A stretch of DNA of 64,000 nucleotides from Microbulbifer sp. YPW1 (GTDB lineage Bacteria; Pseudomonadota; Gammaproteobacteria; Pseudomonadales; Cellvibrionaceae): contig NZ_CP055157.1 in the NCBI RefSeq assembly GCF_013367775.1, positions 4,104,001-4,168,000 of the forward strand, written 5' to 3'. The notes below the pieces were generated by a model. It did not search any database, had not been told where the DNA came from, and was given only the letters and a program-made list of their open reading frames with translations. Shown piece after piece: positions 35,518-64,000 of the stretch; positions within the stretch are counted from its first letter, which is position 1, and each line of letters starts with the position of its first letter. Position numbers and translations under genes: made by a program.

Positions 35518-35611
35518 AACCGCTGGTACGCAGCTTGGGACGATATCCGCCTCGGCCTCAGTCACTACGTTGCCGCGCCTACTCTGCAAACGACCCCGCC
35601 ACAATAAATCT

Positions 35612-35626
35612 ATTGTTATATCTATA
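35612..35626 (+). promoter_or_regulatory. Predicted island operator 1 (symporter promoter)
   Basis: ATTGTTATATCTATA matches the island consensus AWTGWTATATCWWTA. ACAAT six bases upstream forms an inverted repeat with the leading ATTGT. It lies about 60 bp before the symporter start. The same motif precedes five other units of the island. Confidence 0.6.
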
Positions 35627-35684
35627 GATTTTTTATACCTTTCTGACTCAACCCTCTCTCACGCTATACAAGTGGGGAATCCCC

Positions 35685-37139
35685 ATGGACGTTTCCGTTG
35701 CTGTATATACCCTGATCATCTACAAGATCATTCTGATATTCATCGGCTTCTGGAGCCAAAGACGTACCAGGGATACCGAAGACTATTTTCTCGGTGGGCG
35801 AAACCTGGGACCGGTAGTGGCAGCCATCAGCTACGGCGCCAGCAGTGCCTCTGCGTGGACGCTACTCGGGATGAGCGGTGTTACCTACATGCTGGGCCTA
35901 CCCGCCATCTGGATAGCCGCGGGGGCAATTTTGGGCTGCGCTGTCGCCTGGATCTGGATCGCCCCGCGACTGATGCAATATACCCGCGCCAGGAACCAGA
36001 TTACCCTCACGGAATTTCTTGCTGAGAACCCCGAACAAGCTTCAACAGGGAATTCAGCACAGGTCGCCAAAATTGCGTCTGCAATCATCCTGCTCTCATT
36101 CATTTTCTACATAGCCGCACAATTCCAGGGCTCGGCAACCACCTTTGCGAACGTGTTCGGACTGCCACTGGCAGAAAGCCTGATTGCAGGTGCAGCCATC
36201 ATTACCATATATACCTTTCTCGGCGGCTTCTGGGCCGCCAGCATAACGGACACATTGCAGGGTGGATTGATGCTGATCGCCGCCATTCTGCTGCCGGGTA
36301 CGGCGTTTATCTATCTTGGCGGCTGGGAGTCGATACAGGGTTACAGCATTTTCACTGACCAGTCTCTGACACTCACAGGAGAGAACGCAGGGCTTGCCGC
36401 CGCAGGTTTCATCGCTGGCAACCTGGCGGTGGGGATCGGCACGCTCGGCCAACCACACTTGCTGAACCGCTTTATGGCGCTGCGGGATCAGCGCGCGCTT
36501 AAAACTGCGCAGGTACTGGCGATTGGCTGGATATCGCTGATGTTCCTCAGCATGTTCGCCCTTGGCCTCATGGGTAAAGTCCTGTTACCGGACCTGGCAG
36601 ATCCAGAGGCTTTATTCTTCGAGCTATCCAGCCAGTTGCTCCCTCCATTTATCGGCGCGATCCTGCTGGCCGCGGTTCTATCCGCCATTATGTCTACCGC
36701 CGATAGCATGCTTCTCGTGGTTGCCGCCACCATCTCCAATGACCTGCAGTTCCAGCGGTTACTACCGGGCCGGGAGCTGTTGCTGTCGCGCGTGTCCATG
36801 GTCGCCGTTGCAACACTGGCAGTGCTGGTGGCCATGTTTTTACCAGCGACGATATTCGAACGTGTGCTATTTGCGTGGATTGCCATCGGATCTGCGTTTG
36901 CGCCGACGATTCTTGCACGGCTCTCGGGTATACCGATTTACCCGAAAGATGTCACACGCTCCATGATTACCGGGTTTGTGCTCGCAGTGGCCTTTTACCT
37001 GCGCCCCAACACCCCTGGTGACTGGGCTGAGAGGCTCGTCCCCTTCTCCGCTGCGATGGCAGTTTTGCTTGCACCCATGTTATTCCAGCGCTTTCTCAGC
37101 AGACTCCGCACTCGTACCACCTCGGACCCCGCCAGATAA
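35685..37139 (+). CDS. Sodium/solute symporter (SSS family)
   Basis: The 484-residue protein has about 13 hydrophobic segments and the SSS/PutP hallmark DYFLGGRNLGPVVAAISYGASSASAWTLLG (overlapping parts at residues 29-58). LAAVLSAIMSTADSMLLV follows in the second half and contains Na+-site residues. It imports an organic solute with sodium across the inner membrane. PutP-like sequence does not prove proline as substrate. The island operator in front ties it to the catabolic genes. GGGG eight bases before the ATG supports the start. Confidence 0.88.
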   Translation: MDVSVAVYTLIIYKIILIFIGFWSQRRTRDTEDYFLGGRNLGPVVAAISYGASSASAWTLLGMSGVTYMLGLPAIWIAAGAILGCAVAWIWIAPRLMQYTRARNQITLTEFLAENPEQASTGNSAQVAKIASAIILLSFIFYIAAQFQGSATTFANVFGLPLAESLIAGAAIITIYTFLGGFWAASITDTLQGGLMLIAAILLPGTAFIYLGGWESIQGYSIFTDQSLTLTGENAGLAAAGFIAGNLAVGIGTLGQPHLLNRFMALRDQRALKTAQVLAIGWISLMFLSMFALGLMGKVLLPDLADPEALFFELSSQLLPPFIGAILLAAVLSAIMSTADSMLLVVAATISNDLQFQRLLPGRELLLSRVSMVAVATLAVLVAMFLPATIFERVLFAWIAIGSAFAPTILARLSGIPIYPKDVTRSMITGFVLAVAFYLRPNTPGDWAERLVPFSAAMAVLLAPMLFQRFLSRLRTRTTSDPAR

Positions 37140-37187
37140 AACAACCATAAAGGTCTCCACCGGGCTCTGGTTGGACAGCAGGAAGCC

Positions 37188-37224
37188 AAATAAAAAGCCG
37201 CGCATAAAGCGCGGCTTTTTATTT
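37188..37224. terminator. Perfect bidirectional Rho-independent terminator
   Basis: A 16-bp perfect inverted repeat (AAATAAAAAGCCGCGC and its complement) with an ATAAA loop separates the convergent symporter and Rieske genes. The A and T tracts let it act on both strands. Confidence 0.93.
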
Positions 37225-37263
37225 CATCATCTTTGGACCTTTTTCAGGTCCACTGCAAAACGA

Positions 37264-38433
37264 TCAGGTAGTCTCCGGCTCAGGCTCCACCTGTACATTC
37301 ACCGGACGTCGGGTCGGCGCCACCAATGGCACCGTATCCAGTGCCCATTTGAAATGGGGATTGGTTCGACGCGCGGGAGAAGGAATGGTAAACACCTTTT
37401 CACCTTCGAAAGGCCGCATGGCTTTGGTATCGATCTTCCAGCCTTTCTCTTCGATATGCTTCCTGCGGATCATACGCCAGGCGCCCATAAACTTGTCCTG
37501 CTCCACAGACACCTCGTTCTCGAGAGACTCGGGCAGGTAGTTGGGGGAAAGTTCCGCAACAATCTCGCCATCTTCCCCAAAGACTTTGCTGGTGCGCTTC
37601 TTCGCACCCTTATCAAATATCGACCACTTGAAGAAGTTCCGCACCTGTACCGCAAACGAGCGAGTGGTGTTTTCATCTACCGGTGTATTGGCGTCAAAGA
37701 TGATCATCTCCATCCAGGAGTTCACTTTGATATGCAGGCGCACACAGTGTCCCGGCAGATAGAAAGACGGCGTCACATACGTCGCTTCCTTGTCGCGACG
37801 GAAGAACTTCATCAGCCCGAAATTACCCTGCAGCTGCGGCGGATAAAGTACGTTGTCAGAAGAGCCCCAGTACTCACCGCGATCCACCTTCAGAATCTTG
37901 TTTTTATCGGCCATTTCCTTGTAGCCGAAGCCGGGGTGCACGAAGGAGGTATGCGCGATATCGATACCGTTTTCGACCACCCGATCAACCGAACCCTTCC
38001 AGTTGTATTCGACTTCAACCGGGCGCCAGTTGGCCTTGTCTTCGTACTCAGGGAACTCGGGAATCGGGTAGCGCTCTTCTTCCGGGAGATCACCAAGGAA
38101 CACCCAGATCATGCCGTAACGCTCTTCCGTGGGATAAGCGTCAATACGCGCGCGCTCCGGGATCGGCGCATCCTCACCCCGCGATGGGATGAACTTTACC
38201 TTACCTTCCGCATCAAATTCCCAGCCGTGATAAGGACAGGCCACACAATCGCGCTCGGTGGTCCAGCCTTTGGACAGTGCGCCACCGCGGTGAATACACA
38301 CATCACTCAGGCAGTTCACCTTGCCGCTTTTGTCGCGAAACAGAACGAAATTCTGTCCCAGCATTTTCACCCGAACGGGCTTGTCTTTTACCGCCTTGGA
38401 CCACTCTGCTACATACCAAAGGTTAGTCAGCAT
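37264..38433 (-). CDS. Rieske non-heme iron oxygenase, possible tetrapyrrole ring-opening oxygenase
   Basis: The 389-residue protein has an N-terminal Rieske domain. The [2Fe-2S] ligands are Cys46/His48 and Cys66/His69, in a C-x-H-R-x16-C-x2-H spacing like the plant PaO/CAO/TIC55 group, although many bacterial oxygenases share it. The mononuclear iron motif is Asn155-Asp158-His161-His166. No reductase or ferredoxin gene is adjacent. It lacks the C-terminal CxxC and membrane anchor of plant pheophorbide a oxygenase, so it is not a simple orthologue. The ATG at 38433 has AGGTGG just upstream. It is the last gene of the minus-strand operon. Opening a tetrapyrrole ring is an inference from the RCCR-like neighbour; an aromatic or N/O-demethylating oxygenase is the alternative. 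Confidence 0.85.
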   Translation of the reverse strand: MLTNLWYVAEWSKAVKDKPVRVKMLGQNFVLFRDKSGKVNCLSDVCIHRGGALSKGWTTERDCVACPYHGWEFDAEGKVKFIPSRGEDAPIPERARIDAYPTEERYGMIWVFLGDLPEEERYPIPEFPEYEDKANWRPVEVEYNWKGSVDRVVENGIDIAHTSFVHPGFGYKEMADKNKILKVDRGEYWGSSDNVLYPPQLQGNFGLMKFFRRDKEATYVTPSFYLPGHCVRLHIKVNSWMEMIIFDANTPVDENTTRSFAVQVRNFFKWSIFDKGAKKRTSKVFGEDGEIVAELSPNYLPESLENEVSVEQDKFMGAWRMIRRKHIEEKGWKIDTKAMRPFEGEKVFTIPSPARRTNPHFKWALDTVPLVAPTRRPVNVQVEPEPETT

Positions 38434-38526: not shown

Positions 38527-39642
38527 TCATATTTCCTGACCCGAGGCCAAAAAACTCTGATTGTGTTCACCGAGTTTCGGCAAGCAGGTATTTACCTGTG
38601 CCGGCTCGTGTAAAAACTTGATCGGCACCCCGAGATGCCGATTACCTGCGTCATCTTCAAAAACCATTTCCCGAACGCGCAGATGCTCTTCTTTCAGGGC
38701 TTCATCGAGAAGACGAACCGGCGACCAGCAGACATCCAAGCCTTCGAACCAATCGCTCCACTGAGCGAGTGTACGGCCGGCAAATTCCTTTTTCAGAAAC
38801 TCAATTGCCTCTTCCTGATCGCCGGGCGGACGCTCACAGGCAGCGGCCAATTCGGGTCGACCCAAACGGGAAAAGAGGTTTTTGGCAAATTTGATTTCAC
38901 TGCCACCCAGTGTCAGATGCCGCCCGTCCGCCGTACGGTAGATACGGTACATGGCATTGCCGCCCCAGGAGCGTTCCTGCTTGACGACCGGTGAGCGATT
39001 TTCCGCAAACACAGGGCCAAGCGCGTTGGGCAACCAGGCCACCAGGCTGTCCTGCATGGAGATATCCAGGTAGTCCCCGCACCCGGTTTCGTTCCGCCGC
39101 AGTAACGCCATCAGTATGCCCGAAAGCCCCATCAATGACGCGGCCATATCTGCCACCGGCATCGCGGGAGAACAGGGTTCCCCATCGGCGCCCTCATTGA
39201 GAAATACCGTTCCGGATTCAGCCTGGATACTGAGATCATGGGCGGGCTTCTGACTTTTGGGGCCGGACTGGCCAAAGGCGGAAATGGAGCAGTAAACCAG
39301 GCGGGGATTGCGCGCACTCAATGTGGCGTAGTCGAGCCCCAGACGGGCCATGGCGCCGGGGCGGAAGCCCTCGACAAACACATCGGCCTCATCAATCAGG
39401 GCCAGTAGCTGGGCCTTCTGCTCTTCATCCTTGAGATTCAGACAGAGACTCTTCTTGCCCCGATGGGTATTGCGAAACCAGACGGCCTCGCCATTTTTGC
39501 GCAAGCCGATGTTGCGGGTAGGTTCTCCGGAGGGAGGCTCGACCTTGATCACCTCCGCGCCGTGGTCCGCCATCATCATGGTCAGGTGCGGACCGGGCAG
39601 GAACAGTGAAAGGTCGACGACACGTATGCCTTGCAGCTTCAT
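38527..39642 (-). CDS. CaiB/BaiF family CoA-transferase (copy 1)
   Basis: The 371-residue class III CoA-transferase opens GIRVVDLSLFLPGPHLTMMMADHGAEVIKVEPP, given here in overlapping parts, which is typical of the family. GFRPGAMARLGLDY follows. The catalytic Asp is expected in the region DMAASLMGLSG. Class III enzymes move CoA between carboxylic acids, often from succinyl-CoA. It lies next to a second CaiB gene, and such pairs sometimes form heteromers. In this island it probably activates a branched diacid. Confidence 0.85.
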   Translation of the reverse strand: MKLQGIRVVDLSLFLPGPHLTMMMADHGAEVIKVEPPSGEPTRNIGLRKNGEAVWFRNTHRGKKSLCLNLKDEEQKAQLLALIDEADVFVEGFRPGAMARLGLDYATLSARNPRLVYCSISAFGQSGPKSQKPAHDLSIQAESGTVFLNEGADGEPCSPAMPVADMAASLMGLSGILMALLRRNETGCGDYLDISMQDSLVAWLPNALGPVFAENRSPVVKQERSWGGNAMYRIYRTADGRHLTLGGSEIKFAKNLFSRLGRPELAAACERPPGDQEEAIEFLKKEFAGRTLAQWSDWFEGLDVCWSPVRLLDEALKEEHLRVREMVFEDDAGNRHLGVPIKFLHEPAQVNTCLPKLGEHNQSFLASGQEI

Positions 39643-39682: not shown

Positions 39683-40876
39683 TTAGATAACCTGCCCGTT
39701 TCTCCACGCGGCAATTTCCGCCGCGGAATAACCGAGCCCGAGTAGCAGGTCCTCGCTGTCCGCACCAAGCGCTGAACAGCCAGTTCCAGTGGGCCTGTTT
39801 CCGTCAAATTTTAACGGGCTTGCGAGCAGCCTGAATTGACTATTGTCAACATGTGGCAGTGACTGCAGCATGCCGGTCTGGGCCAGCCAGGGATTCTGCA
39901 TGGCCTGGGCGAAGCTGTTCACCGGGGCCAGCGGCAGACGCCCCGCAAACACACTCACCCAGTGGGTGTTCGGCTGTTTGGAGAACTCGGCATCCAGGAT
40001 TTCCGTAAGCACCTCCCGGTTCTCACGGCGCAATGCGACCGTTCTGAAGCGCGCATCGTCAAGCAGGTCCACTCGCCCCAACCCTTCGGCAAGGATCTGC
40101 CAGAACTTCTCCGTCATGGCCATCACAAACACCCAGCCATCGGCACTGCGATAAATCTGGCAGGGTACCGTTGACGGATGGCCGGAACGGGGAACACGGG
40201 TGGTCTCGTGATCGCGATTCAGGTACCAGGTAGCCGGGTATGTCAGCTGGGTAGCCGCCACATCGAACAGGTTCACATCCACATCGCGACCGGCACCGCC
40301 GCGCAAAACGCCGACAAGCGTACCGAGCACGGCCATGGCAAGCGTCACCCCGCTCATGAAGTCCACCATCGACAGGCCAAAGCGTGCGGGCGGTGTGCCC
40401 GGCTCTCCGGTGAGGTCCATAAAACCCATCTCGGCCTGCATCAGATAATCGTATCCAGGCCAGGTGGCGCGATCATTGTCGCGGCCGTAGGCGGAAAGGT
40501 GCCCGCAGATGATTTCCCGCTTTACCGCGCCCAGACTGTCGTAGTCCAGACCCAGTTTTGCGGGCTGATCGCCGCGCAGGTTATTCATCACGATGTCTGC
40601 GCTCTGCACCAGTCGCTCGAAGATTTTCCGACCTTGCGCGCTCTTGAGGTCCAGCGTCAGGCTCTTCTTGCTGCGATTGAAGGTCTGGAAAAAATCGCTG
40701 TCGTTATCCCCCAGAAAATAGGGACCGGACTTTCGGGCGATATCGCCACCAGTAGCCGGGTTCTCTATTTTGATGACCTCAGCCCCCATATCCGCAAGCT
40801 GCATGGAGCCGAAAGGTCCGGCCCCGTACTGCTCCACGGCAATAACGCGGATTCCCGCCAGTGGCTTATCCTGCAT
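39683..40876 (-). CDS. CaiB/BaiF family CoA-transferase (copy 2)
   Basis: The 397-residue protein has VIAVEQYGAGPFGSMQLADMGAEVIKIENP (overlapping parts) at its start. FNRSKKSLTLDLKS follows, and FGLSMVDFMSGVTLAMAVLG should hold the catalytic Asp. The start overlaps the stop of the acyl-CoA dehydrogenase gene (TAATG), so the two are coupled. With MaoC and CitE it resembles the mesaconate/itaconate CoA-transferase, hydratase and lyase modules. Confidence 0.88.
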   Translation of the reverse strand: MQDKPLAGIRVIAVEQYGAGPFGSMQLADMGAEVIKIENPATGGDIARKSGPYFLGDNDSDFFQTFNRSKKSLTLDLKSAQGRKIFERLVQSADIVMNNLRGDQPAKLGLDYDSLGAVKREIICGHLSAYGRDNDRATWPGYDYLMQAEMGFMDLTGEPGTPPARFGLSMVDFMSGVTLAMAVLGTLVGVLRGGAGRDVDVNLFDVAATQLTYPATWYLNRDHETTRVPRSGHPSTVPCQIYRSADGWVFVMAMTEKFWQILAEGLGRVDLLDDARFRTVALRRENREVLTEILDAEFSKQPNTHWVSVFAGRLPLAPVNSFAQAMQNPWLAQTGMLQSLPHVDNSQFRLLASPLKFDGNRPTGTGCSALGADSEDLLLGLGYSAAEIAAWRNGQVI

Positions 40877-42048
40877 TACAGATTCGCCTCGCGCGCTGCC
40901 AGCTGCTTGGCAATGATGATGCGCTGCATTTCATTGGTACCCTCACCCACGCACATCAACATGGCATCGCGATAGTAGCGTTCAATTTCATACTCAGTGG
41001 AAAATCCGTAGCCGCCAAAGATACGCATGGCTTCCTGGGCACAGAAAACACCGGCCTCACTGGCGAAATACTTGGCCATGCCCGCTTCCATATCGCAGCG
41101 CTCACCGCTGTCATACATGCGTGCGGCCTGATCTACCAGCAGTTTGGCCGCCTCAACTTTCGCTGCCATTTCGCCAAGTTTCAGCTGGATTGCCTGGTGC
41201 TGGATGATCGGCTTGCCAAAGGTTTCCCGTTCCGTGGCGTAGCGCACGGCCAGCTTCAATGCGCCCTGAGCTATACCGGCACCGCGAGCGGCAACATTGA
41301 TACGACCGAGTTCCAGGCCGCCCACCGACATATGGAATCCACGGCCTTCTTCGCCACCTATCAGGTCATCAGCGGAAACGCGGAAATCCTCGAATACCAC
41401 CTCCGCCGTATCAATAGCGCGATAACAGGTCTTCTTGATCTTGTTGATAGTGATACCCGGCAACAGGTTACCGGCATCATCTTTGGTGCGGATGGCAAAC
41501 AGCGACATGCCGCGATGTCGGGGCTCTGCATTGGGATTGGTTTTGACCAGCAGGCCGAGACAATTGCCATTGACCGCGTTGGTGATCCACATCTTGCTGC
41601 CATTGATCACGTAGCTGTCGCCATCGCGTTTTGCCACGCAGCGGATCGCCTGCAAATCGGAACCGGCATTGGGTTCAGTCAATGCGATACCGCCGCGCAA
41701 TGCGCCCTCAGCCATCAGTGGCAGAAAGCGCTGCTTCTGCTCTTCGGTGCCAAAGCGCTCCACTGCAGCGGCCATGATCAGGTGGGAATTGAAAATGCCA
41801 CCCGGGGCCATCCACACCGCAGAGATTTTCTGCACAATACGTGCATAGGTGCTGGCGGAAAGCGCCAGTCCGCCATAGCTTTCACCGATGGTGGCACCAA
41901 ACAGCCCCAGGGACTTCATGGTTTCCACCAGCTCGTGGGGATACTCGTCGGCGAGATCCTTTTCCCGCGCGATCGGCGCAACATCGTTGGCCACAAAGCG
42001 GTCTATGGTATCGAGGATCGCGGCCTCATCTTCTGCAGTCCAGCTCAT
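40876..42048 (-). CDS. Acyl-CoA dehydrogenase
   Basis: The 390-residue protein has all three ACAD domains. GGIALTEPNAGSDLQAIRC binds FAD/substrate, SKMWITNAVNGN follows, and the C-terminal IFGGYGFSTEYEIERYYRDAM is near residues 340-360 with the usual catalytic Glu region. It introduces a 2,3-double bond into an acyl-CoA using FAD. AGGAG upstream of the ATG at 42048 supports the start. It lies between the MaoC and CaiB genes, so its substrate is probably the CoA ester made by those transferases. Confidence 0.93.
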   Translation of the reverse strand: MSWTAEDEAAILDTIDRFVANDVAPIAREKDLADEYPHELVETMKSLGLFGATIGESYGGLALSASTYARIVQKISAVWMAPGGIFNSHLIMAAAVERFGTEEQKQRFLPLMAEGALRGGIALTEPNAGSDLQAIRCVAKRDGDSYVINGSKMWITNAVNGNCLGLLVKTNPNAEPRHRGMSLFAIRTKDDAGNLLPGITINKIKKTCYRAIDTAEVVFEDFRVSADDLIGGEEGRGFHMSVGGLELGRINVAARGAGIAQGALKLAVRYATERETFGKPIIQHQAIQLKLGEMAAKVEAAKLLVDQAARMYDSGERCDMEAGMAKYFASEAGVFCAQEAMRIFGGYGFSTEYEIERYYRDAMLMCVGEGTNEMQRIIIAKQLAAREANL

Positions 42049-42076: not shown

Positions 42077-42595
42077 TCAATAGTTCACCTTGTCTTCCAT
42101 TTCCGACCCGCGCTTCCACACCAGGACCTTGCGCAGAAAGGAACATACTTCGGTGCCATCCTGCTTGGTGCCACGTGTGCGCACGGTGACGATGCCCTGG
42201 TTGGGACGCGACTTGGATTCCCGCATGTCCAAAACCTCAGACTCGGCGTACAGGGTATCCCCCACAAACAGCGGCGCGGTCATGCGGATATCGTCCCACC
42301 CCAGGTTGGCGATCGCTTTCTGGCTGATATCCGTCACACTCATACCGACCATCAGGGCCACAGTGAACGGACTGCACACCAACGGCTTGCCGAACTCGGT
42401 GCCCTCCGCGTATACCTTGTCGAAGTGCGCGGGATGGGTATTCATAGTCAACAGGGTGAACCAGGTGTTATCGGTTTCGGTGATGGTCCGCCCCGGTCGA
42501 TGCTCATAGGTATCGCCCACTTTGAAATCTTCAAAGAAACGTCCAAAGGTCTCACGGTAGCGGTTTTCACCAACCTGCTTTACTTCTCCAGCCAT
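42077..42595 (-). CDS. MaoC family enoyl-CoA hydratase, mesaconyl-CoA hydratase-like
   Basis: The 172-residue hotdog-fold protein reads GRFFEDFKVGDTYEHRPGRTITETDNTWFTLLTMNTHPAHFD in overlapping parts. This is the MaoC hydratase-2 motif with the Asp/His dyad, and it is very like mesaconyl- and itaconyl-CoA hydratases. It would hydrate a branched unsaturated dicarboxyl-CoA. The ATG at 42595 (MAGEVKQVG) fits the family length; an upstream in-frame start would overlap citE. It is paired with the CitE-type lyase gene 19 bases away. Confidence 0.87.
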   Translation of the reverse strand: MAGEVKQVGENRYRETFGRFFEDFKVGDTYEHRPGRTITETDNTWFTLLTMNTHPAHFDKVYAEGTEFGKPLVCSPFTVALMVGMSVTDISQKAIANLGWDDIRMTAPLFVGDTLYAESEVLDMRESKSRPNQGIVTVRTRGTKQDGTEVCSFLRKVLVWKRGSEMEDKVNY

Positions 42596-42614: not shown

Positions 42615-43448
42615 TTACACAAATTCTTTTTCAGTATTTCCACGGGCAATCAGCCTGCGCGCGCTGTCCACGATGGGCTGATCCACCATGCGGCCGTTCA
42701 CCACCACGGCGCCGCCACGGGCCTGCTCAAAGGCATCGACAATATCCCGGGCCTGGCGCAGGGCCTCGGCGGTTGGGGCAAAACCCCGATGAATCCCGTT
42801 AATCTGCGCGGGGTGAATGGCGGCCTTGGCGGCATAGCCCAGCGCGGCGACACGGCGCGTTTCAGCCTCCAGCCCCTGGGAGTCCCGCACATCCAGGAAC
42901 GGCACATCAATTAGCGGCAGGCGGTAGGCAGCGGCAATCACAGCCATCTGCGAACGCGCCCACAACAGAGGCTCCCAAGCGAATTCCGCGCCCAGCTGTG
43001 CGGCGAAATCACCGCCGCCAAACATCACCGCATCGAGGGTGCTATCGCGGCAGATCGCTTCCATAGCCAGCAGTCCCGATGCACTTTCCACTAGTGCGAT
43101 CCACCCCACGGGCTGGCCCAGCAAGGTTGCCGCGGTGGCGACATCGCCAGCGCTTTCGGTTTTCGCCAACATCAATCTCGCGGGCAATCGGGCTTTGGAA
43201 AGCGCGTATAGATCTGCCCTACCCTCATCACTTTCTGCAGCGCTGACGCGAATCACAATGCGCTGAAGCAGAGACGGATCACATCCTTCGAGAAAGTCGC
43301 ACACCAGGCTGCGTGCATCCGCTTTCTGCGCCACTGGCACAGCATCTTCCAGATCAATGCACACCAGGTCGGCATCGCTGTCCAGTGCCTTCTCAAACCT
43401 ATCGGGACGGTGCCCGGGAACGAACAACAGGCTGCGTGCGTTAAACAT
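42615..43448 (-). CDS. CitE/HpcH family lyase, citramalyl-CoA lyase-like
   Basis: The 277-residue TIM-barrel protein opens RSLLFVPGHRPDRFEKAL and has the metal site region DLVCIDLEDAVP. VMFGGGDFAAQLGA and AAIHPAQINGIHRGF follow. Members cleave malyl-, citramalyl- or citryl-CoA type thioesters to a 2-oxoacid plus acyl-CoA. With the MaoC and CaiB genes it suggests cleavage of a citramalyl-CoA-like intermediate to pyruvate. The start overlaps the stop of the upstream hydrolase gene by one base. Confidence 0.9.
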   Translation of the reverse strand: MFNARSLLFVPGHRPDRFEKALDSDADLVCIDLEDAVPVAQKADARSLVCDFLEGCDPSLLQRIVIRVSAAESDEGRADLYALSKARLPARLMLAKTESAGDVATAATLLGQPVGWIALVESASGLLAMEAICRDSTLDAVMFGGGDFAAQLGAEFAWEPLLWARSQMAVIAAAYRLPLIDVPFLDVRDSQGLEAETRRVAALGYAAKAAIHPAQINGIHRGFAPTAEALRQARDIVDAFEQARGGAVVVNGRMVDQPIVDSARRLIARGNTEKEFV

Positions 43449-55573: not shown

Positions 55574-55582
55574 GTTATTGAT

Positions 55583-56428: not shown

Positions 56429-57295
56429 ATGCCTGATACGCTGCCCCAATTACTCGCAAGCGGCACCGTGCTCTCGGTGCCAGGCATCTACGATGGACTC
56501 AGCGCCCGGCTGGTGGAGCTGGCGGGCTTTGAGGCTGCCTTCCTGTCCGGTGCCTGCCTGTCGTTTGCACGCTTCGGGCGCCCGGATATGGGACTGGTCA
56601 GTGCGTCAGAGGTGGCGGACACCGTAGCCGTCATCCGCGAGCGCACGGAGCTGCCACTGATCGTGGATATGGACACCGGCTTCGGCAATGCGCTCAATGT
56701 AAAGCGCACCGTTGCTACGTTTGAGCGCGCCGGCGCATCCGCTCTGCAGATGGAAGACCAGCTGATGCCCAAACGCTGCGGGCACATGCAGGGCAAACAG
56801 GTGATCAGCTGTGGAGAAATGGTCGGCAAGATTCACGCCGCCCTGGATGCACGGCGCAGCACCAAAACGCTAATTTTCGCGCGTACCGACGCCCTTGGCG
56901 TCAACGGCTTTGACGACGCGCTGGAAAGGGCCGAACGCTATCTGGAAGCCGGCGCTGATGCCATCTTCATCGAGGCGCCCAAAACCGTGGAACAGATGCG
57001 GGCCATCGGCGAGCAGCTCGGCGGGCGCACGCCACTGATTCACAATCTGGTCGAGGGGGGAAACTCTCCAGTACAGACCCTGGAAGAGTTGCGCGCGCTG
57101 AACTATCGCATCGCCCTTTACCCCGCCTCCCTGCTGCACCTGTTCATTCCGGCTGCACAGGACATGCTGGCGGAACTGCGCCACAGCGGGCACCTGCAGG
57201 CCAGGCGCAAGCAGATGATCGATCTGGCGGCCGTGAACAATCTCCTTGGCGCCGATGAACTGCTGGCAGCCAGCGAAGAATACCAATACGAATAA
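56429..57295 (+). CDS. Isocitrate lyase/PEP mutase superfamily lyase, dimethylmalate or methylisocitrate lyase-like
   Basis: The 288-residue TIM-barrel protein has SVPGIYDGLSARLVELAGFEAAFLSG in its opening, the Mg-binding VDMDTGFGNALNV, and the catalytic loop KRCGHMQGK near residue 112. KRCGH with its Cys marks the C-C lyase branch, as opposed to the phosphonomutases. Relatives cleave methylisocitrate or 2,3-dimethylmalate to pyruvate plus an acid. In this island an alkylmalate from a dialkylmaleimide is an attractive substrate, by inference. Confidence 0.88.
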   Translation: MPDTLPQLLASGTVLSVPGIYDGLSARLVELAGFEAAFLSGACLSFARFGRPDMGLVSASEVADTVAVIRERTELPLIVDMDTGFGNALNVKRTVATFERAGASALQMEDQLMPKRCGHMQGKQVISCGEMVGKIHAALDARRSTKTLIFARTDALGVNGFDDALERAERYLEAGADAIFIEAPKTVEQMRAIGEQLGGRTPLIHNLVEGGNSPVQTLEELRALNYRIALYPASLLHLFIPAAQDMLAELRHSGHLQARRKQMIDLAAVNNLLGADELLAASEEYQYE

Positions 57296-57308: not shown

Positions 57309-58781
57309 ATGAACCGTGACTACTCATTGCCCGAGCTCACCAATTACATCGACGGTGTATTCAGCGCGCCCACCACAAGCCGCGGATATTACCTGTGCGA
57401 TGCCAATTCCGGCGAACCCCTGCAGGAGCGGCGTAACAGCGACGCTGGCCAGGTGTCGAATGCTCTGGAAGCGGCAGACCGGATCCACGCCGAAGCCACA
57501 TGGGAAGAAACGCCAGCCCATGAACGCGCTACAGTTCTGGAAAACATCGCGGAAGAGCTCAGCGGTGAGACTTATGCGGACACCATCAGTACCGCCGATA
57601 GCCTTACCTCCGGCGCCATCATCCGCACCACACGCAAAATGGCCAAAATTCTCCCGATGGTATTTCGGGGCGCTGCAGCCTATCTGCGCGAAGGACACCT
57701 GGAGCAAAAGGTACCCGGCCCCTGTGGTGAAGTGGAGTATCTGCGACGCCCCTGGGGGCCTGCCCTGCTGATCGCTCCCTGGAATGGCCCCACTGCCATC
57801 GCCTCCCACAAGATTGCCAGCGCCCTGGCAGCGGGTGCTCCCTGTATTCTGAAGCCATCGGAATTTACCCCCCACTCCGCAGTGATGATGGCACGGGCCG
57901 CGCATCGCGCCGGCCTACCCGCAGGCGCATTTCAGCTGGTACTGGGGGATCGAACAGTGGGCGCAACCATGGTGGAGGATCCGCGCATCAAAGCGGTGTC
58001 GTTCACTGGAGGACTGGCCGGCGGTCGCGCTATTGCCCGCGCCTGTGCCGACGACTTTATTCCCACGCAACTGGAACTCGGCGGCAACAATCAGCTGGTG
58101 GTATTTGAAGATGCGGACCTGGATAAGGCCGCAACCGGCATCGCCTACGGCCTCACCAACCTCAATGGTCAGTGGTGCCGCGCACTGGGGCGACTGCTGG
58201 TGCATGAATCCGTAAAGGACGCCCTGCTCGACAAGGTGCTGAGCCTGCTATCCAGCTTGCGCCTCGGCCACTCTCTCGACGAACAAAGCGATATGGGGCC
58301 ACTGGTGCACCGCGGCCACTTCGAGCAGGTACAGGCCGACATTGAGCGGCTACAGGCGAAAGGCGGACAACTGCTTTGCTCCACCCCGCTGCCGGACCTG
58401 AAAGGCAATTTTATTGCCCCGACCCTGGTGGATGGGTGCCAGCCAGCGGATACCCGCGAGGAAATATTCGGCCCCGTGGCAGCGGTACACACCTTCCGTA
58501 ACGACGAGGAAGCCCTGGCGCTGGCAAACGGTACCGACCTGGGACTGGCGGGCTATGTGTACAGCGAAAATACCGAGCGCGCCTTCGCCTTCGCCCGGCG
58601 CATGCGCACGGGTGGTGTGAAGATTAACGGCTACAGCCTGCTGAGTATTGGCCAGGGCACCCCGCGCGGTGCCTGGGGCCTGTCAGGGCTCGGAGAGGAA
58701 GGTCATGCCCAGTCGATCGAGTTCTTTACCGGAGCACGGGTAATCGGCATATCGCCACAGGATGCACTCGGGGGACGCTGA
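57309..58781 (+). CDS. NAD(P)-dependent aldehyde dehydrogenase
   Basis: The 490-residue protein has the ALDH fold. It has LIAPWNGPTAIASHKIASALAAG, KPSEFTPHSA, catalytic Glu in LELGGNN and catalytic Cys in NGQWCRALGR. EEIFGPVAAV and the C-terminal strands are also present. It would oxidise an aldehyde released in the pathway, such as a formyl side-chain fragment. The ATG at 57309 gives the normal length; an upstream in-frame start would overlap the lyase gene. It is the last gene of the plus-strand operon. Confidence 0.92.
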   Translation: MNRDYSLPELTNYIDGVFSAPTTSRGYYLCDANSGEPLQERRNSDAGQVSNALEAADRIHAEATWEETPAHERATVLENIAEELSGETYADTISTADSLTSGAIIRTTRKMAKILPMVFRGAAAYLREGHLEQKVPGPCGEVEYLRRPWGPALLIAPWNGPTAIASHKIASALAAGAPCILKPSEFTPHSAVMMARAAHRAGLPAGAFQLVLGDRTVGATMVEDPRIKAVSFTGGLAGGRAIARACADDFIPTQLELGGNNQLVVFEDADLDKAATGIAYGLTNLNGQWCRALGRLLVHESVKDALLDKVLSLLSSLRLGHSLDEQSDMGPLVHRGHFEQVQADIERLQAKGGQLLCSTPLPDLKGNFIAPTLVDGCQPADTREEIFGPVAAVHTFRNDEEALALANGTDLGLAGYVYSENTERAFAFARRMRTGGVKINGYSLLSIGQGTPRGAWGLSGLGEEGHAQSIEFFTGARVIGISPQDALGGR

Positions 58782-58808: not shown

Positions 58809-59255
58809 TTAATCGACCAGCGAGATCTCTTCCAGCTGCTGAGGCTGTGCAATCTGAATCACCGCCTTGGAAAATTTCGGTGGACCGAAGCGGGGAACAT
58901 GGCCATTGGAGAGGCCCACCGGCTCCTTCGGAATGCCGATAAAGTTGCGATCCATTTCGCCATTGGCGTTGTTGTCATGATGCACACTAATGGCGTATTG
59001 ACCGTACGGCAGGCTCAGGTCCACGGCAAGTTTTCCATCCGCGAGACTCTCAAGCCCCACCTCCTGCGCGTAGAACTTGGTCTCACCGAGAAACGTATCT
59101 TTTGAGTCGTATACAGCGATATACAGTTTCCCGACCTGGGACTGGATATTCGAAACGGTCAGTTTGATATTCGCCGTTTCGGCACTGGCAAGCACCGGCC
59201 CGCAGGTGAACACCACAAGTACAGCACGGAAAAAACGCAGTATTGGATCATTCAT
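58809..59255 (-). CDS. DUF2141 secreted protein
   Basis: The 148-residue protein has a signal peptide (cleavage near ASAET). A DUF2141 beta-sandwich follows: KLYIAVYDSKDTFLG, YGQYAISVHHDNNANGEMDRNFIGIPKEPVGLSN in overlapping parts, and FGPPKF. The DNNANGEMD loop looks like a calcium-binding site. Its function is unknown; members often accompany carotenoid or outer-membrane genes. It follows the HMG-CoA-lyase-like gene by 62 bases and may be its last co-transcribed gene. Confidence 0.85.
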   Translation of the reverse strand: MNDPILRFFRAVLVVFTCGPVLASAETANIKLTVSNIQSQVGKLYIAVYDSKDTFLGETKFYAQEVGLESLADGKLAVDLSLPYGQYAISVHHDNNANGEMDRNFIGIPKEPVGLSNGHVPRFGPPKFSKAVIQIAQPQQLEEISLVD

Positions 59256-59317: not shown

Positions 59318-60235
59318 TCAGATGAGCGGCGACTCTTTTTCAAGCTGCAAGCGACGCCAGGTATCCGCGCGGCCACCGGTGGTGACACCCAGCATCTCAC
59401 CCACCAGCTGGCCTGCCGCCATCAGTGCGGGCAGATCAATTCCGGTATCGAACCCCATCTGCTCGAGCAACATCACCACATCTTCACTGGCTACGTTACC
59501 CGTGGCCCCAGGGGCAAACGGGCAACCGCCGATACCGCCAATAGAACTATCGAATTTGCGGATGCCCGACTCGAGCGCCGCATACACATTCGCCAGGCCA
59601 AACGCACGGGTATCATGGAAATGACAGGCCAGCTTTCCAGCGCCGTACTCCTGTGCCAACGCGCCCATCAATCGCCCCACTGCCCTCGGGTTCGCAGCAC
59701 CGATCGTATCGGCAATGTTCACATCGTCCGCCCCCATGGCGAACAAGCGCCCCGCCAGGTCCAGCACCCGGCCCGGTTCGGTCGCCCCCTCAAAGGGACA
59801 ACACCATGCTACCGCAATGCAGGCCACCACGCGCACGCCGTCGGTTCTGGCGGCGGCGCAAATTTCCTGTGCCTGCGCCAGTGATTCCTCAATCGACATG
59901 CGCACGTTGCGCTGGTTCATGGTTTCGCTGGCGCATACCACCAGCACAACGGTGCCGGCACCCGCATCGCGTGCCAGTGTGTATCCTTTGAGGTTGGGAA
60001 TGAGCACCTGAAAGTCCACCCCGGCATCCGCCGACAAACCGGCGAGCACCGCATCGGTGCCAGCCATTGCCGGCACTGCCTTTGGCGACACAAAAGCGCC
60101 CGCCTCCACCGATCGCACACCTGCCTTGAGCAGTCCGCGAATCAGTTGTACGCGCTGGTCCACAGACAGTACTCGGGTTTGATTCTGCAGCCCGTCGCGC
60201 GGGCCCACATCATTGATCAGTATCTTTTCACGCAT
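59318..60235 (-). CDS. HMG-CoA lyase-family enzyme
   Basis: The 305-residue DRE-TIM barrel enzyme starts INDVGPRDGLQNQ. It has the metal-binding HFHDTRAFGLANV and the catalytic GGIGGCPFAPGATGNVASED with its Cys. HMG-CoA lyase makes acetoacetate and acetyl-CoA, and relatives cleave citramalyl-CoA-like thioesters. It follows a CaiB gene by 54 bases, a pairing that suggests CoA transfer followed by cleavage of a 3-hydroxy-diacyl-CoA. It is the second CoA-ester lyase of the island. Confidence 0.9.
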   Translation of the reverse strand: MREKILINDVGPRDGLQNQTRVLSVDQRVQLIRGLLKAGVRSVEAGAFVSPKAVPAMAGTDAVLAGLSADAGVDFQVLIPNLKGYTLARDAGAGTVVLVVCASETMNQRNVRMSIEESLAQAQEICAAARTDGVRVVACIAVAWCCPFEGATEPGRVLDLAGRLFAMGADDVNIADTIGAANPRAVGRLMGALAQEYGAGKLACHFHDTRAFGLANVYAALESGIRKFDSSIGGIGGCPFAPGATGNVASEDVVMLLEQMGFDTGIDLPALMAAGQLVGEMLGVTTGGRADTWRRLQLEKESPLI

Positions 60236-60289: not shown

Positions 60290-61489
60290 TCACGCCGCGT
60301 CGCCGCCTTGCTTGAGCGCCTCGATATCTGCGGATGTATAACCGCAGAGCTCACTTAGAACCTGATCGGTATGCTGACCAATATGCGGCGCCGGCGAGAA
60401 GGAATCCTCGTGGGTGCGGGACAGTTTGATAGGATTCCCCGGAGCCTTGGTGGTCTTCCCGTTCGGGTGGGCAATATCCACCACCATGTTGCGGTGCAGC
60501 ACCTGCGGATCGCGCAGCGCTTGCTCCAGATTGTTGATCGGCGCACAGGGAATACGCTGGGCTTCAAGCTGTGCCAGCCAGGCATCAGTGGTGTCGGTGG
60601 CGAAAACCTCCGCCAGCTTGCTGTCGATAAGGTCCTTGTCCGCGAACCGCCCGGGCTGTCCGTCGTACTTGGGATCATCAAACTCCGGCACATTCACTAC
60701 CGGCTTCAGGTTCTGCCAGAAGTTGTCGGTAATCACCGCAATGATGATGAAACCATCGGAAGTCGCGTAGCTGTTGTAAGGCACATGCACAAAGTGCGCG
60801 TTGCCGATGGGGTACGGGTTTTTACCACTGAGGAAATGCATGGTCGCCATGTAGTTCAGCATGGAAATCTGGCAGTCAACCATGGAGATATCGACGTGCT
60901 GGCCGCGATTGCTGGTGGCGCGCTCGGCAATCGCCGCGAGAATCCCCATCACCGCAAACATGCCACCGCCAAGGTCCCCGATGGGAATACCCGCACGCAC
61001 CGGGTTGGAGGGGTCGTCACCGGTAATCGACATACCACCGCCGTATGCCTGGGCCACCTGATCGAATGCCGGGCGCTTGGCACCGGGGCCATCTGAACCG
61101 AAGCCGGAAACACAGCAGGTAATAATGCGCGGGTTGATCTCACTCAATGTGTCGTAATCAATGCCCAGGCGCTCGGGAACACCGGGGCCAAAATTGCTGA
61201 TCACCACATCCGCCTGTTTTACCAGATCGTAAAATACCTGCTGGCCGCGCTCGCTTTTCAGGTTGAGTGCCACACTGCGCTTGTTGCGGTTGAGGGTCAG
61301 GTAATAGGCACCGAAGCCATCAATGGAGTTCTCCGGATCATTCGCAAGTAACTTGCGAGTGCCCTCTCCGGCCAGCGGTTCGACCTTGATCAGATCTGCC
61401 CCCAGGTCAGCGAGAATCATCGCCCCATAGGGCCCGGACAACATATGGGTAAGGTCCAGTATTCGAATGCCATTCAGCGCCTTGTTCAT
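60290..61489 (-). CDS. CaiB/BaiF family CoA-transferase (copy 3)
   Basis: The 399-residue protein opens with IRILDLTHMLSGPYGAMILADLGADLIKVEPL, overlapping parts shown. LTLNRNKRSVALNLKS follows, and GIPIGDLGGGMFAVMGILAA holds the expected catalytic Asp. AAGGAG lies six bases before the ATG. It is the first gene of a two- or three-gene unit with the HMG-CoA lyase-like gene. An island operator lies 45-60 bp upstream. Confidence 0.88.
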   Translation of the reverse strand: MNKALNGIRILDLTHMLSGPYGAMILADLGADLIKVEPLAGEGTRKLLANDPENSIDGFGAYYLTLNRNKRSVALNLKSERGQQVFYDLVKQADVVISNFGPGVPERLGIDYDTLSEINPRIITCCVSGFGSDGPGAKRPAFDQVAQAYGGGMSITGDDPSNPVRAGIPIGDLGGGMFAVMGILAAIAERATSNRGQHVDISMVDCQISMLNYMATMHFLSGKNPYPIGNAHFVHVPYNSYATSDGFIIIAVITDNFWQNLKPVVNVPEFDDPKYDGQPGRFADKDLIDSKLAEVFATDTTDAWLAQLEAQRIPCAPINNLEQALRDPQVLHRNMVVDIAHPNGKTTKAPGNPIKLSRTHEDSFSPAPHIGQHTDQVLSELCGYTSADIEALKQGGDAA

Positions 61490-61649: not shown

Positions 61650-61674
61650 AGCGAGAGAAAATCGACGTTGGCAA

Positions 61675-62643
61675 TCAGATGGACTTGCCGGTTTCCGGGT
61701 TGACCGGGGTCTTCCAGAACAGATACATGAGCGCAAAGTATCCCACCAGGATGGCTGTTGCCGTAACGGGATATTCCAGATAAAACACCCACGGCTCCCG
61801 GAACCAGCCCCACAGCACCGCCTGCTCGGGCAGATACCAGAAAACCCCACCTACCGCGATCGCATAGCGGATCGCCAGACCGGCCTCTTTCTGCTTGAGC
61901 TGTTTGGCGATAATGATTGCCGACCAGATGGCGACAGCACCAAACGCAATATAGTTGGCGATATGGTGCAGGCCGACAATCCGCTCGTCGTTCACGATCA
62001 GCATCAGCGTGTACATAAACCAGTTAACAAAAAACAGTTCGACTGCCGCCACGCGGGCATACTGGGGCTTGTAGCCCTTGGTCGGCTTACCAGGCCGCAG
62101 GCCAAACAACTTGCGCACCCACAGAATCAGGCGGCAACGCACATCCTGGTTCAGACCCATGTAGATCATCAGCATAAAGCAGAACAGCGTACTGCTCTGC
62201 AGGAATACATGCGCCCCCATAAAATAGGGCCGGGGAATCGAGGTGTCACCGGAAAATAATGCTGTGACTTCCGCTTTACCCAGATACTGAATGCCAGCGT
62301 CCGTCTGCGCCAGCGCAAAATTATTCTCAGCACCAATAAAGTGCAGGTACATCTCAAACCAGAACACCCAGATCAGTGATCCACCCACAAATCCCATCCA
62401 GGTGCCCCGGACCTCATTGTGTTTCAACCCCCTCCACACAATGACCAATCCCAGCAGGCCGATCACAAACGCCACCGCGTATGAGATTGCCATGGGAATG
62501 CCCGCATAGATGAGTGTCACCAGGTAGATGTGGGCGATCATTTTTTCCAGCACGATCCATGTCAATGCCAGAAGACCAAGATAGGGAGCACTGTAAATTC
62601 GGGATTTTATTCCGGAGGGATATTCAATCGCGGCGACGGCCAT
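61675..62643 (-). CDS. Polytopic membrane protein of unknown function
   Basis: The 322-residue protein has about eight hydrophobic segments and many aromatic residues. His residues lie in or near membranes (KMIAHIYLV, FEMYLHFIGAEN, GAHVFLQS, GLHHIANYIAF). This pattern could suit heme or metal binding or electron transfer, but I know no family. GAGG eight bases upstream of the ATG supports the start. It is a single-gene unit between the CaiB unit and the TonB receptor, so a membrane electron carrier or transporter for the pathway is one guess. Confidence 0.65.
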   Translation of the reverse strand: MAVAAIEYPSGIKSRIYSAPYLGLLALTWIVLEKMIAHIYLVTLIYAGIPMAISYAVAFVIGLLGLVIVWRGLKHNEVRGTWMGFVGGSLIWVFWFEMYLHFIGAENNFALAQTDAGIQYLGKAEVTALFSGDTSIPRPYFMGAHVFLQSSTLFCFMLMIYMGLNQDVRCRLILWVRKLFGLRPGKPTKGYKPQYARVAAVELFFVNWFMYTLMLIVNDERIVGLHHIANYIAFGAVAIWSAIIIAKQLKQKEAGLAIRYAIAVGGVFWYLPEQAVLWGWFREPWVFYLEYPVTATAILVGYFALMYLFWKTPVNPETGKSI

Positions 62644-62784
62644 TGTCGTTACCTCTTTATCTTTTTACTTATTTTCTAATTTTTCTTAGCGCTATCAGGT
62701 CATAGCCACTGCATGTGTTTTTATTTTGCGCAGTATCTCAATGAGCCAAAGCCGCTAAAGCGCACTGTCTTTCTATACGTGAAA

Positions 62785-62809
62785 CGCCCGCGACACAAGG
62801 TCGCGGGCG
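62785..62809 (-). terminator. Stem-loop after the TonB receptor gene
   Basis: CGCCCGCGAC and GTCGCGGGCG form a perfect 10-bp stem around ACAAG just past the receptor stop codon. On the minus strand only a short T-run follows, so termination strength is uncertain. Confidence 0.65.
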
Positions 62810-62819
62810 GCCATTTTCA

Positions 62820-64000
62820 TCAGAAGTTATAGCTGACCCGCAGGCCCGCTGTGCGCGGTTCCGGCAAGAAGAGCTCAACGGTCTGCGGTGTGATAGCCCC
62901 GCCCGGCAGGAAGCCGTAATCCACGTTGCTCAGACCGAACTTGACCTTGTCGTCATCCAGAAGGTTATCGACGTAGAACACCAGGTCGAGGCTGTCGAAC
63001 CGCACCCCACCCTGGAAATCCACCAGCCAATAGGACGGCAGCCAGGCGTTGTTGCCGCGATCCAGGTAACGCTTGGATTCATAACTGCCGATCAGCTCGG
63101 TGAAGTAGCCCGCGCCAGTGGCGAATTCACCGTCGTAGCGGATAGACAACAGCCCGGCGTGTTCGGCGGAGTTCAGGAACTGCGTGCCGGAATAGTCACC
63201 ATCCTCGGTCTGAGTCCACAGTTTGTCGAACGAACTGACGTTACCCACATCGCCTATTGTGAAGTCCTGAACCTCGGTATCGCTCAACACGTAGCTGGCG
63301 CCGAAGGTCCAGTTGGCGGACGGGCGGTAGATCGCGCTCAGCTCCATACCGCGCAGTTCACTCTCCCCTGCGTTGGCAACCGCGGCATTGGTAGTACCGG
63401 TCTGCGGGTCCGTCACAAAATGGGAGATCTGCTGATTGCTGTAATCGTACAGGTAGAAGGCACCGTTCAACTGCAGGCGGTTGTTCAGCAGATTGCTCTT
63501 GAAGCCGGTCTCGTATACCGACAGTTCTTCAGGCTTGTAATCACCACTTGAGATGTCGCCATTGCCATCGGCTGTGGACATACCGCCGGGCTTGAAGCCT
63601 TCCGCGTAGGAGGCATACACCATCAGGTTGTCCATCATCTGCCAGTCCAGGCCTACCCGCGGCACAAAGGAACTGTCTGTGCGGGCGTACGTCTGGTACT
63701 CAGCCGTCGTTGGCATGAACGTCATCGGGTCCAATACCGGGATACCCATCAGGCCATTGAATTGCGTACTCAGCGGCAAGCTGACGTATTCAATATCCTC
63801 TTCAAGGTAGCGCCCTTCCGCCGTCAAACGCCAGTTGTCCGCGAAGTTGTAGTTGATGGAGAATGCGAGAGACACGTGGTCAGTATCACGAGTCATGGGA
63901 ATGGGCAGAGGTGTAGGACCCGTCTGGTGATTCACCAGGCCAAATCCACCCATCCACTGATCGAGGTACGCATCCCAGAATTCTTTACTGACACCGTCGC
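62820..64000 (-). CDS. TonB-dependent receptor, partial (5' end outside window)
   Basis: The reading frame stays open to the right edge, so only the C-terminal 390 or so residues are seen. They show outer-membrane beta-barrel features: alternating strands, YASYAEGFKPGGMSTADGNGD, RLQLNGAFYLYDYSNQQI, ELRGMELSAIYRPS and a C-terminal aromatic AGLRVSYNF. These are typical of TonB receptors of the FyuA/IroN-like carbohydrate or xenobiotic group. The plug and any sigma/TonB motifs lie beyond the window. As the last island gene visible it is the likely outer-membrane entry route for a bulky substrate such as a tetrapyrrole. Confidence 0.92.
   Translation of the reverse strand, partial: DGVSKEFWDAYLDQWMGGFGLVNHQTGPTPLPIPMTRDTDHVSLAFSINYNFADNWRLTAEGRYLEEDIEYVSLPLSTQFNGLMGIPVLDPMTFMPTTAEYQTYARTDSSFVPRVGLDWQMMDNLMVYASYAEGFKPGGMSTADGNGDISSGDYKPEELSVYETGFKSNLLNNRLQLNGAFYLYDYSNQQISHFVTDPQTGTTNAAVANAGESELRGMELSAIYRPSANWTFGASYVLSDTEVQDFTIGDVGNVSSFDKLWTQTEDGDYSGTQFLNSAEHAGLLSIRYDGEFATGAGYFTELIGSYESKRYLDRGNNAWLPSYWLVDFQGGVRFDSLDLVFYVDNLLDDDKVKFGLSNVDYGFLPGGAITPQTVELFLPEPRTAGLRVSYNF

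Follow-up and report, generated by a model that had tools for sequence, protein, structure and literature searches.

A gene cluster of about 67 kb in Microbulbifer sp. YPW1, which holds three proteins with the fold of RCCR and bilin reductases together with oxygenase, amidase, and C-C lyase genes, probably lets this bacterium degrade linear tetrapyrroles, presumably derived from chlorophyll, to central metabolites. The window that we analyzed, a stretch of 64,000 nucleotides, covers bases 4104001 to 4168000 of the single-contig, 4.58-Mb genome. The sequence was followed for 70 kb beyond it (positions above 64000 are continued window coordinates), genes were called with a simple codon-score script, and the names g035 to g097 were assigned here. 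The cluster spans these 63 called genes, from 35685 to ~103,000, a count in which the membership of each gene is not individually established. A first-pass annotation had placed about 28 contiguous genes for tetrapyrrole breakdown at 35601 to 64000. Its start and its gene number agree with our calls (28 genes, g035 to g062, from 35685 to the window end); its end does not, since the window truncates the cluster, the TonB receptor gene running on to 65423 and related genes to ~103,000. All the families it named were recovered by Pfam at or near the proposed places (Table 1): the RCCR-like reductase, a Rieske oxygenase, three cyclic-imidase-like hydrolases of the PuuE-type/polysaccharide-deacetylase family, two amidases (isochorismatase type and CN_hydrolase), three class III CoA-transferases, an acyl-CoA dehydrogenase, a MaoC-type hydratase, three kinds of C-C lyase (HpcH/CitE type, PrpB-like, and HMG-CoA-lyase [HMGL]-like), sodium:solute symporter family (SSF) and MFS transporters, and the TonB receptor. 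Genes lie on both strands, indicating several transcription units, and the guanine-plus-cytosine content of the cluster (0.579 and 0.601) is near the flank values (0.583 and 0.559), thus leaving no compositional mark of recent transfer.

Both g055 (50.0 bits) and g095 (55.6 bits) passed the cut-off of the RCC_reductase family PF06405 (24.9 bits). The structure predicted for g055 by AlphaFold2 (AF2; pLDDT 91) matched Arabidopsis RCCR at Foldseek ranks 1 to 9, as well as ferredoxin-dependent bilin reductases, and displays their alpha/beta/alpha sandwich, with most of the chain matching solved structures. Three independent kinds of evidence (Pfam, Foldseek, and sequence profile) concur, and a chance hit was rejected on that basis. 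The third protein, g071, has the RCCR/bilin-reductase fold by structure comparison; it matched no Pfam family, PF06405 included, and a PDB search with it returned no match. Its relatives amount to 1,772 database proteins, a family without a Pfam model, and the nearest relatives of g071 (97%) and g055 (93%) come from Microbulbifer. For the first-pass annotation, its proposal would fail if g055 lacked a structural match to RCCR or bilin reductases and, in addition, homologues of the cluster sat in steroid, lignin, or allantoin operons; g055 matches both kinds of reductase and is accompanied by two further members of the family or fold. RCCR and bilin reductases tied in the Foldseek and VIA lists, so that the fold alone cannot pick the substrate. 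The sequence profile is nearer RCCR (3.1e-20) than bilin reductases (8.5e-9), and g055 scores below the bilin reductase cut-off (PF05996; 23.5 versus 31 bits); some of its relatives bear the precomputed tag PF05996. No recognizable plant protein occurred among the 120 matches listed in the profile search. A tetrapyrrole is well supported as the substrate.

Active-site acids were tallied in 276 retrieved proteins, none dropped, which were assigned to three groups according to their best BLAST match: 50 g055-like (one a partial hit, P0048), 106 g095-like, and 120 g071-like sequences. The two acid positions of RCCR are taken here to be Glu154 and Asp291, numbers placed by hand on the aligned chains, and the first was scored as the fifth residue past a conserved Pro. 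Because the aligners put a short gap at this position in RCCR and g071, equivalence there is a count from the Pro, not a structural superposition. The residue is Ala in 46 of the 50 g055-like proteins and Val or Ile in 102 of the 106 g095-like ones (four without a motif match in each group), and Asp in 119 of the 120 g071-like ones (one without a motif match). By this count, the g055 and g095 types do not seem to have the plant-type acid at the Glu154 position. Both retain that of the Asp291 position, aligned with the Arabidopsis Asp; the motif D-x3-R-x6-D-P-x-N was found in 49/50 g055-like, 106/106 g095-like, and 0/120 g071-like proteins. This division of the acids fits three different reductions, and none of the three types would be a plain copy of plant RCCR.

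Gene organization ties the reductases to their neighbors. Paralogous pairs within the cluster encode CN_hydrolases (g052/g072; 41%), short-chain dehydrogenases (SDRs; g053/g075; 43%), and MFS carriers (g054/g073; 38%), and each set adjoins one reductase, g055 or g071, an arrangement suggestive of a duplicated nitrilase-SDR-MFS-reductase module. We compared nine related loci of 20.8 kb each, six from Microbulbifer and one each from Thalassotalea (L014), Rheinheimera (L015), and Thalassomonas (L016). Genes for g055, g054, the g056-like lyase, and maleate-isomerase-like proteins occur in all nine, within 21 kb. L012 and the loci of the three other genera share the order g094-g053-g095-(g096)-g054-g055, with g053 beside an RCCR in each of these four. 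The non-Microbulbifer loci hold two RCCRs, an SDR, an MFS carrier, and an epimerase-type reductase, together with the lyase and maleate-isomerase-like genes already mentioned. g036 is found in Thalassotalea and Rheinheimera, and Thalassomonas adds LeuCD-like, HMGL-like, CoA-transferase, and CN_hydrolase genes inside the same 20 kb. By the genes matched, these three loci are unlike steroid or allantoin operons, which belong to the second half of the condition set by the first-pass annotation. Two contigs from another family (L032 and L033) combine RCCR, g071, g063-like, CN_hydrolase, g070, MFS, and aldehyde dehydrogenase genes in 10 kb, one of them also with g036; in the family around genome G244, two of only three genomes were positive for both genes searched. 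As a separate observation, L034 (6229-18823; genome G368) has a distant g071 relative (29%) beside a CoA-transferase gene and, by eye, UbiD-like and nitrilase-like genes.

PF06405 occurs in 12 of the 48 genomes of the genus, and g036 (E <= 1e-60), g048 (1e-40), and g065 (1e-30) were each found in the same 12, an identity mostly explained by linkage in one island. Genome G374 (4.5-Mb contig), however, retains the complete set even though its imidase-like genes (3.92 Mb) are far from its RCCRs (0.16 Mb). At class level, PF06405 and g071 were each detected in the same 4 of 369 genomes, host included, and PF06405 in 0 of 14 control genomes, frequencies that put the finding beyond chance. Three of these four genomes belong to two sparsely sampled lineages, so that they represent few independent events.

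The Rieske oxygenase g036 has intact Rieske (CxH-x-CxxH) and mononuclear-iron (N-x2-D-x2-H-x4-H) motifs. The analogy with the plant pathway drawn by the first-pass annotation stands for the RCCR family and for the presence of a Rieske enzyme, not for its type, which is that of VanA: Pfam (E <= 0.001) reported Rieske, VanA_C, and weak KshA_C domains only, with no PaO C-terminal domain. Its nearest PDB entries are NdmA, SxtDIOX/SxtT, and related demethylases. Steroid degradation was considered and rejected; g036 reached 105.2 bits with the 4beta-methylsterol monooxygenase model (cut-off 600), g070/g079 resemble HsaA/HsaB under the cut-off, and RCCR-fold proteins have no place there. The SDRs g053 and g075 possess the NAD-binding and YxxxK motifs, which are generic to SDRs, and the PDB matches of g075 are generic SDRs as well; the earlier label of g053 as NYC1/NOL-like holds as far as SDR.

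The remaining enzymes were compared with NCBIfam equivalog models. Nearly all scores were under the cut-offs, so that the substrates may be others than those of the enzymes after which the models are named. With PuuE allantoinase (TIGR03212; cut-off 424.6), g042, g048, and g049 scored 253.3, 104.5, and 87.5 bits, and the best PDB chains for g042 were 1z7a (hypothetical protein) and 3cl6 (PuuE). Ordinary allantoin use was rejected on these scores; no other allantoin gene was noticed, the genome not having been searched for them. PDB relatives of g047 are isochorismatase-family and N-carbamoylsarcosine amidohydrolases. The nearest models were mesaconate CoA-transferase for g037 (179.4; cut-off 700) and succinate-glutarate CoA-transferase for g038 (219.5) and g060 (296.3; cut-off 750 for both), while g039 scored below the cut-offs of acryloyl-CoA reductase (316.1) and glutaryl-CoA dehydrogenase (260.9). 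Likewise, g040 and g041 did not reach itaconate RipB (NF038241; 244.5, cut-off 340) and RipC (NF038242; 227, cut-off 375). The closest PDB entry to g056 is methylisocitrate lyase (2.8e-54), and its KRCGH motif is at residue 115; it obtained 266.2 bits with TIGR02317 (equivalog cut-off 354.4). HMGL models were passed by g059 (NF004283; 333.4, cut-off 246), and maleate cis-trans isomerases were the best PDB matches of g063 and g065. In the LeuCD-like pair, g091 is marginally under the LeuC cut-off (TIGR00170; 554.4 versus 560.25) and passes broad LeuC subfamily models, and g090 passes the LeuD model TIGR00171 (209.7; cut-off 116.25). We rejected the pair as the leucine enzyme, since a stronger LeuC (768.1 bits) is encoded elsewhere in the genome, although g090 by itself passes the LeuD cut-off.

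The genome yielded no PF01126 heme oxygenase (the model matched 3/14 controls and was the one heme-opening family searched for), so that the bilin probably comes from outside, either ready-made or formed from a macrocycle that is taken up. Together with the gene content, this supports a catabolic rather than biosynthetic role. As for the source, evidence for chlorophyll in particular is only suggestive. The host protein g097 does not reach the chlorophyllase cut-off (PF07224; 26 bits), which is exceeded by proteins downstream of the RCCR pair in Thalassotalea (18929-19951; 46.2 bits) and Rheinheimera (16584-17597; 48.6 bits). These point weakly to chlorophyll, as their PAF-AH scores are about level (47.8 and 40.0). 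An SGR search gave no match in the host and none in any control and was thus uninformative. Oxidation of chlorophyll and heme is known to yield hematinic acid and dialkylmaleimides, according to part of the text of PMC7318184. A cluster of the same class could, alternatively, act on phycobilins or other ready-made bilins from red algae, cyanobacteria, or animals, with the Rieske enzyme attacking a fragment and no macrocycle opening. The fold match, which spans bilin reductases too, the lack of a reported PaO-type oxygenase, and the sub-cut-off score of g097 agree with this rather unlikely alternative, against which speak the sequence profile, nearer RCCR, and the PF07224 proteins of the two related loci, although PAF-AH scores them similarly.

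For the degradation of chlorophyll-derived tetrapyrroles, we infer the following route, in its substrate, step order, products, main source, and passage through maleates alike. Tetrapyrroles or their fragments would be taken up by the TonB receptor and the MFS and SSF carriers. The Rieske oxygenase g036, served by the rubredoxin/reductase g077, may open or oxidize the macrocycle or the bilin, whose conjugated system g055, g095, and g071 would reduce at different places along with the SDR- and epimerase-type reductases. The oxygenases g066 and g070, with flavin reductase g079, would cut the chain into lactams or imides of one ring each, to be opened to alkyl-maleates by PuuE-type hydrolases (g042, g048, and g049) and by nitrilase-type and isochorismatase-type (g047 and g067) amidases. 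Hydration and cleavage of the alkyl-maleates could involve g063 and g065, g090/g091, the PrpB-like g056, the RipB/RipC-like g040/g041, the HMGL-like g059/g080, and the CoA-transferases. On paper, the hematinic diacid HOOC-C(CH3)=C(COOH)-CH2CH2-COOH is a one-carbon homologue of 2-methyl-cis-aconitate, so that steps of the methylcitrate-cycle type would yield pyruvate and glutarate; the same type of steps would turn the methyl-ethyl diacid into pyruvate and butyrate. The cluster has candidate enzymes for each step of the lower pathway, with alkyl-maleates, pyruvate, and acyl units as likely end products. The putative sequence from maleimide through maleamate and maleate to pyruvate, in line with the imidase and half-amidase steps proposed in the first-pass annotation, is chemically coherent; imidase-like genes were unmatched at the loci of the three other genera. 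A fuller version of this scheme is put forward tentatively: bacterial mineralization of the chlorophyll/bilin ring system by three catalytic RCCR-fold types in duplicated modules, with dialkyl-maleates of the hematinic-acid and methyl-ethyl types handled as methylcitrate/itaconate homologues to give pyruvate and glutarate or butyrate, and the g071 type as a new bilin-reductase family that lacks a Pfam model and is common among marine Gammaproteobacteria.

Several observations weigh against tetrapyrrole degradation as outlined above. The cluster may contain more than one pathway, and most enzyme calls fall short of NCBIfam cut-offs. g036 resembles VanA and sterol and purine demethylases, not PaO. 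With Ala and Val/Ile in place of the central acid of bilin reductases, the g055 and g095 types seem to be without one catalytic acid, and g090/g091 could still have LeuCD-type activity, as g090 passes the LeuD cut-off. PuuE-type genes were matched in L008 to L011 and L013, and were unmatched in the 20-kb loci L012 and L014 to L016 and in the 10-kb contigs L032 and L033. More mildly, the portion of PMC7318184 consulted reports hematinic acid but no maleimides from leaves, which bears on maleimide supply. The RCCR-like proteins might instead detoxify phototoxic chlorophyll breakdown products, while their neighbors on the same accessory island act on substrates of other kinds (cyclic imides, aromatics, and alkyl-dicarboxylates). 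The many generic catabolic families under curated cut-offs, the two coding strands, and the position of the imidase-like genes, not beside RCCR outside Microbulbifer and distant in G374, would suit this explanation. It is made improbable by the g056-like lyase and maleate-isomerase-like genes, which accompany RCCR in 9/9 loci, including three from other genera, by the identical 12/48 profiles, and by the retention of the unlinked set in G374. Biosynthesis of a bilin chromophore or pyrrole natural product, tailored by the other enzymes, would be in line with the usual role of bilin reductases and with g044, of a HapK/RedY-like family known from prodiginine clusters, but is very unlikely given the absence of PF01126 heme oxygenase and a gene set abundant in CoA-transferases, lyases, and beta-oxidation-type enzymes, plus a TonB receptor.

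Table 1. Called genes of the cluster in window coordinates, with Pfam scores and further remarks
Gene	Product or similarity	Position	Strand	Evidence
g035	SSF transporter	35685..37139	+	PF00474 201.3 bits; putative pathway link, from position
g036	Rieske non-heme-iron oxygenase, VanA-type C-terminal domain	37264..38433	-	PF00355 77.7, PF19112 68.6 bits
g037	Class III CoA-transferase	38527..39642	-	PF02515 344.8 bits
g038	Class III CoA-transferase	39683..40876	-	PF02515 348.1 bits
g039	Acyl-CoA dehydrogenase	40876..42048	-	PF00441 164.3 bits
g040	MaoC-type enoyl-CoA hydratase, RipB/Ich-like	42077..42595	-	PF01575 75.3 bits
g041	HpcH/CitE-type C-C lyase, RipC-like	42615..43448	-	PF03328 100 bits
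g042	PuuE-type/polysaccharide-deacetylase-family cyclic-amide hydrolase (imidase candidate)	43448..44347	-	PF01522 60.9 bits
g043	SDR	44373..45227	-	PF13561 197.4 bits
g044	HapK/RedY-like small protein	45254..45565	-	PF11639 40.3 bits (cut-off 25)
g045	Glutathione-S-transferase-like	45797..46333	-	PF13409 29.8 bits (cut-off 25)
g046	Membrane protein	46470..47135	-	No Pfam match over cut-off; kept in L016 (Thalassomonas)
g047	Isochorismatase-type amidase (maleamate-amidase candidate)	47354..48019	+	PF00857 102.3 bits
g048	PuuE-type cyclic-amide hydrolase (imidase candidate)	48019..49014	+	PF01522 32 bits
g049	PuuE-type cyclic-amide hydrolase (imidase candidate)	49011..49955	+	PF01522 39 bits
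g050	GntR/UTRA transcription regulator	50026..50808	+	PF00392 70.3, PF07702 67.5 bits
g051		50815..51537	-	No Pfam match; weak coding score, yet kept in L008-L011, L013, L015
g052	CN_hydrolase (nitrilase-superfamily amidase), module 1	51561..53150	-	PF00795 143.9 bits
g053	SDR, module 1	53390..54187	+	PF00106 136.9 bits (scanned from longer start 53318)
g054	MFS transporter, module 1	54380..55573	+	PF07690 129.7 bits (scanned from 54224)
g055	RCCR-family bilin reductase homologue, module 1	55583..56395	+	PF06405 50.0 bits; AF2 pLDDT 91
g056	PrpB/isocitrate-lyase-superfamily C-C lyase	56429..57295	+	PF13714 146.4 bits
g057	Aldehyde dehydrogenase	57309..58781	+	PF00171 397.2 bits (scanned from 57246)
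g058	DUF2141 protein	58809..59255	-	PF09912 97.4 bits; kept in L032 and L033
g059	HMG-CoA-lyase-family lyase	59318..60235	-	PF00682 159 bits
g060	Class III CoA-transferase	60290..61489	-	PF02515 412.4 bits
g061	Membrane protein	61675..62643	-	No Pfam match
g062	TonB-dependent receptor	62820..64000, on to 65423 outside window	-	Full gene PF00593 130.9, PF07715 79.5 bits
g063, g065	Amdase/maleate-isomerase-like	past 64000		PF17645 62.5 and 41.3 bits (cut-off 25.9)
g066	Class A flavin monooxygenase-like	past 64000		
g067	Second isochorismatase-type amidase	past 64000		
Between g067 and g070	Alpha/beta hydrolase, aldehyde dehydrogenase	past 64000		
g070	Acyl-CoA-dehydrogenase/flavin-monooxygenase-like	past 64000		
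g071	Third RCCR/bilin-reductase-fold protein	past 64000		No Pfam match
g072, g073, g075	Second CN_hydrolase, MFS, SDR	past 64000		
g076		80040-80684		No Pfam family matched
g077	Rubredoxin-rubredoxin reductase fusion	past 64000		
g078		82391-83362		No Pfam family matched
g079	Flavin reductase	past 64000		
g080	Second HMGL-type lyase	past 64000		
Further genes	Fourth CoA-transferase, methyltransferase, enoyl-CoA hydratase, amidase, PaaK-like ligase	past 64000		
g088/g089	MmgE/PrpD pair	past 64000		g089 assigned through homology to g088
g090/g091	LeuCD-like pair	past 64000		
g094	Epimerase-type reductase	past 64000		
g095	Second RCCR	past 64000		PF06405 55.6 bits
g097	Alpha/beta hydrolase	past 64000		PF07224 15.2 bits

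Among the genes without a Pfam family, g076 is probably a core part of the cluster, being 72 to 73% conserved in the Thalassotalea and Rheinheimera loci. Downstream of the cluster, at 110366-131244, three giant genes of 2317, 2545, and 1458 codons were called.

The cluster combines traits of several known systems. Like the plant PAO/phyllobilin pathway, whose members (PaO, RCCR, NYC1/NOL, and PPH) and linear phyllobilin products are described in the available part of PMC8219035, it brings together RCCR-family reductases, SDRs, and a Rieske oxygenase, but it differs in its three reductase types with different acids, its VanA-type rather than PaO Rieske enzyme, and far more downstream carbon-chain enzymes. 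Ferredoxin-dependent bilin reductases (PcyA, PebA, PebB, and HY2; PF05996) have the same fold, and the g071 type retains their central Asp position, whereas g055 is below the cut-off of that family. Nicotinate fermentation proceeds through dimethylmaleate hydratase and dimethylmalate lyase. The methylcitrate cycle (PrpD/AcnD/PrpB) has in common with the cluster the PrpB-like lyase with KRCGH, the MmgE/PrpD pair, and a LeuCD-like hydratase, and itaconate degradation (RipABC) the RipB- and RipC-like enzymes with CoA-transferases. Unlike these three systems, the cluster would act on larger alkyl-maleates, and its proteins miss the equivalog cut-offs except for the LeuD-type and broad LeuC subfamily models. 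The pre-PcyA clusters known from heterotrophic bacteria include genes for heme oxygenase, V4R, and globin proteins, as stated in the accessible text of PMC10151467, in contrast to the present genome with no PF01126 heme oxygenase. In the passages available from PMC10151467 and PMC13193486, RCCR-related bacterial sequences served as the outgroup in bilin-reductase trees. Consistently with the novelty claimed in the first-pass annotation, no bacterial RCCR or bilin/chlorophyll catabolic cluster, nor an operon of this makeup, was described among the matches listed in the open-licence literature.

Some 10^12 kg of chlorophyll is made and degraded each year, as given in the part of PMC7318184 at hand. 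Plants open it to phyllobilins, and among the matches listed no described bacterial gene set takes the opened ring to central metabolism. For this process, the cluster supplies named genes, a chemical scheme open to testing, and relatives in culture, among them M. agarilyticus and M. elongatus. It also adds a bilin-reductase-fold family, that of g071 with its 1,772 database proteins and no Pfam model, and bears on the origin of plant RCCR.

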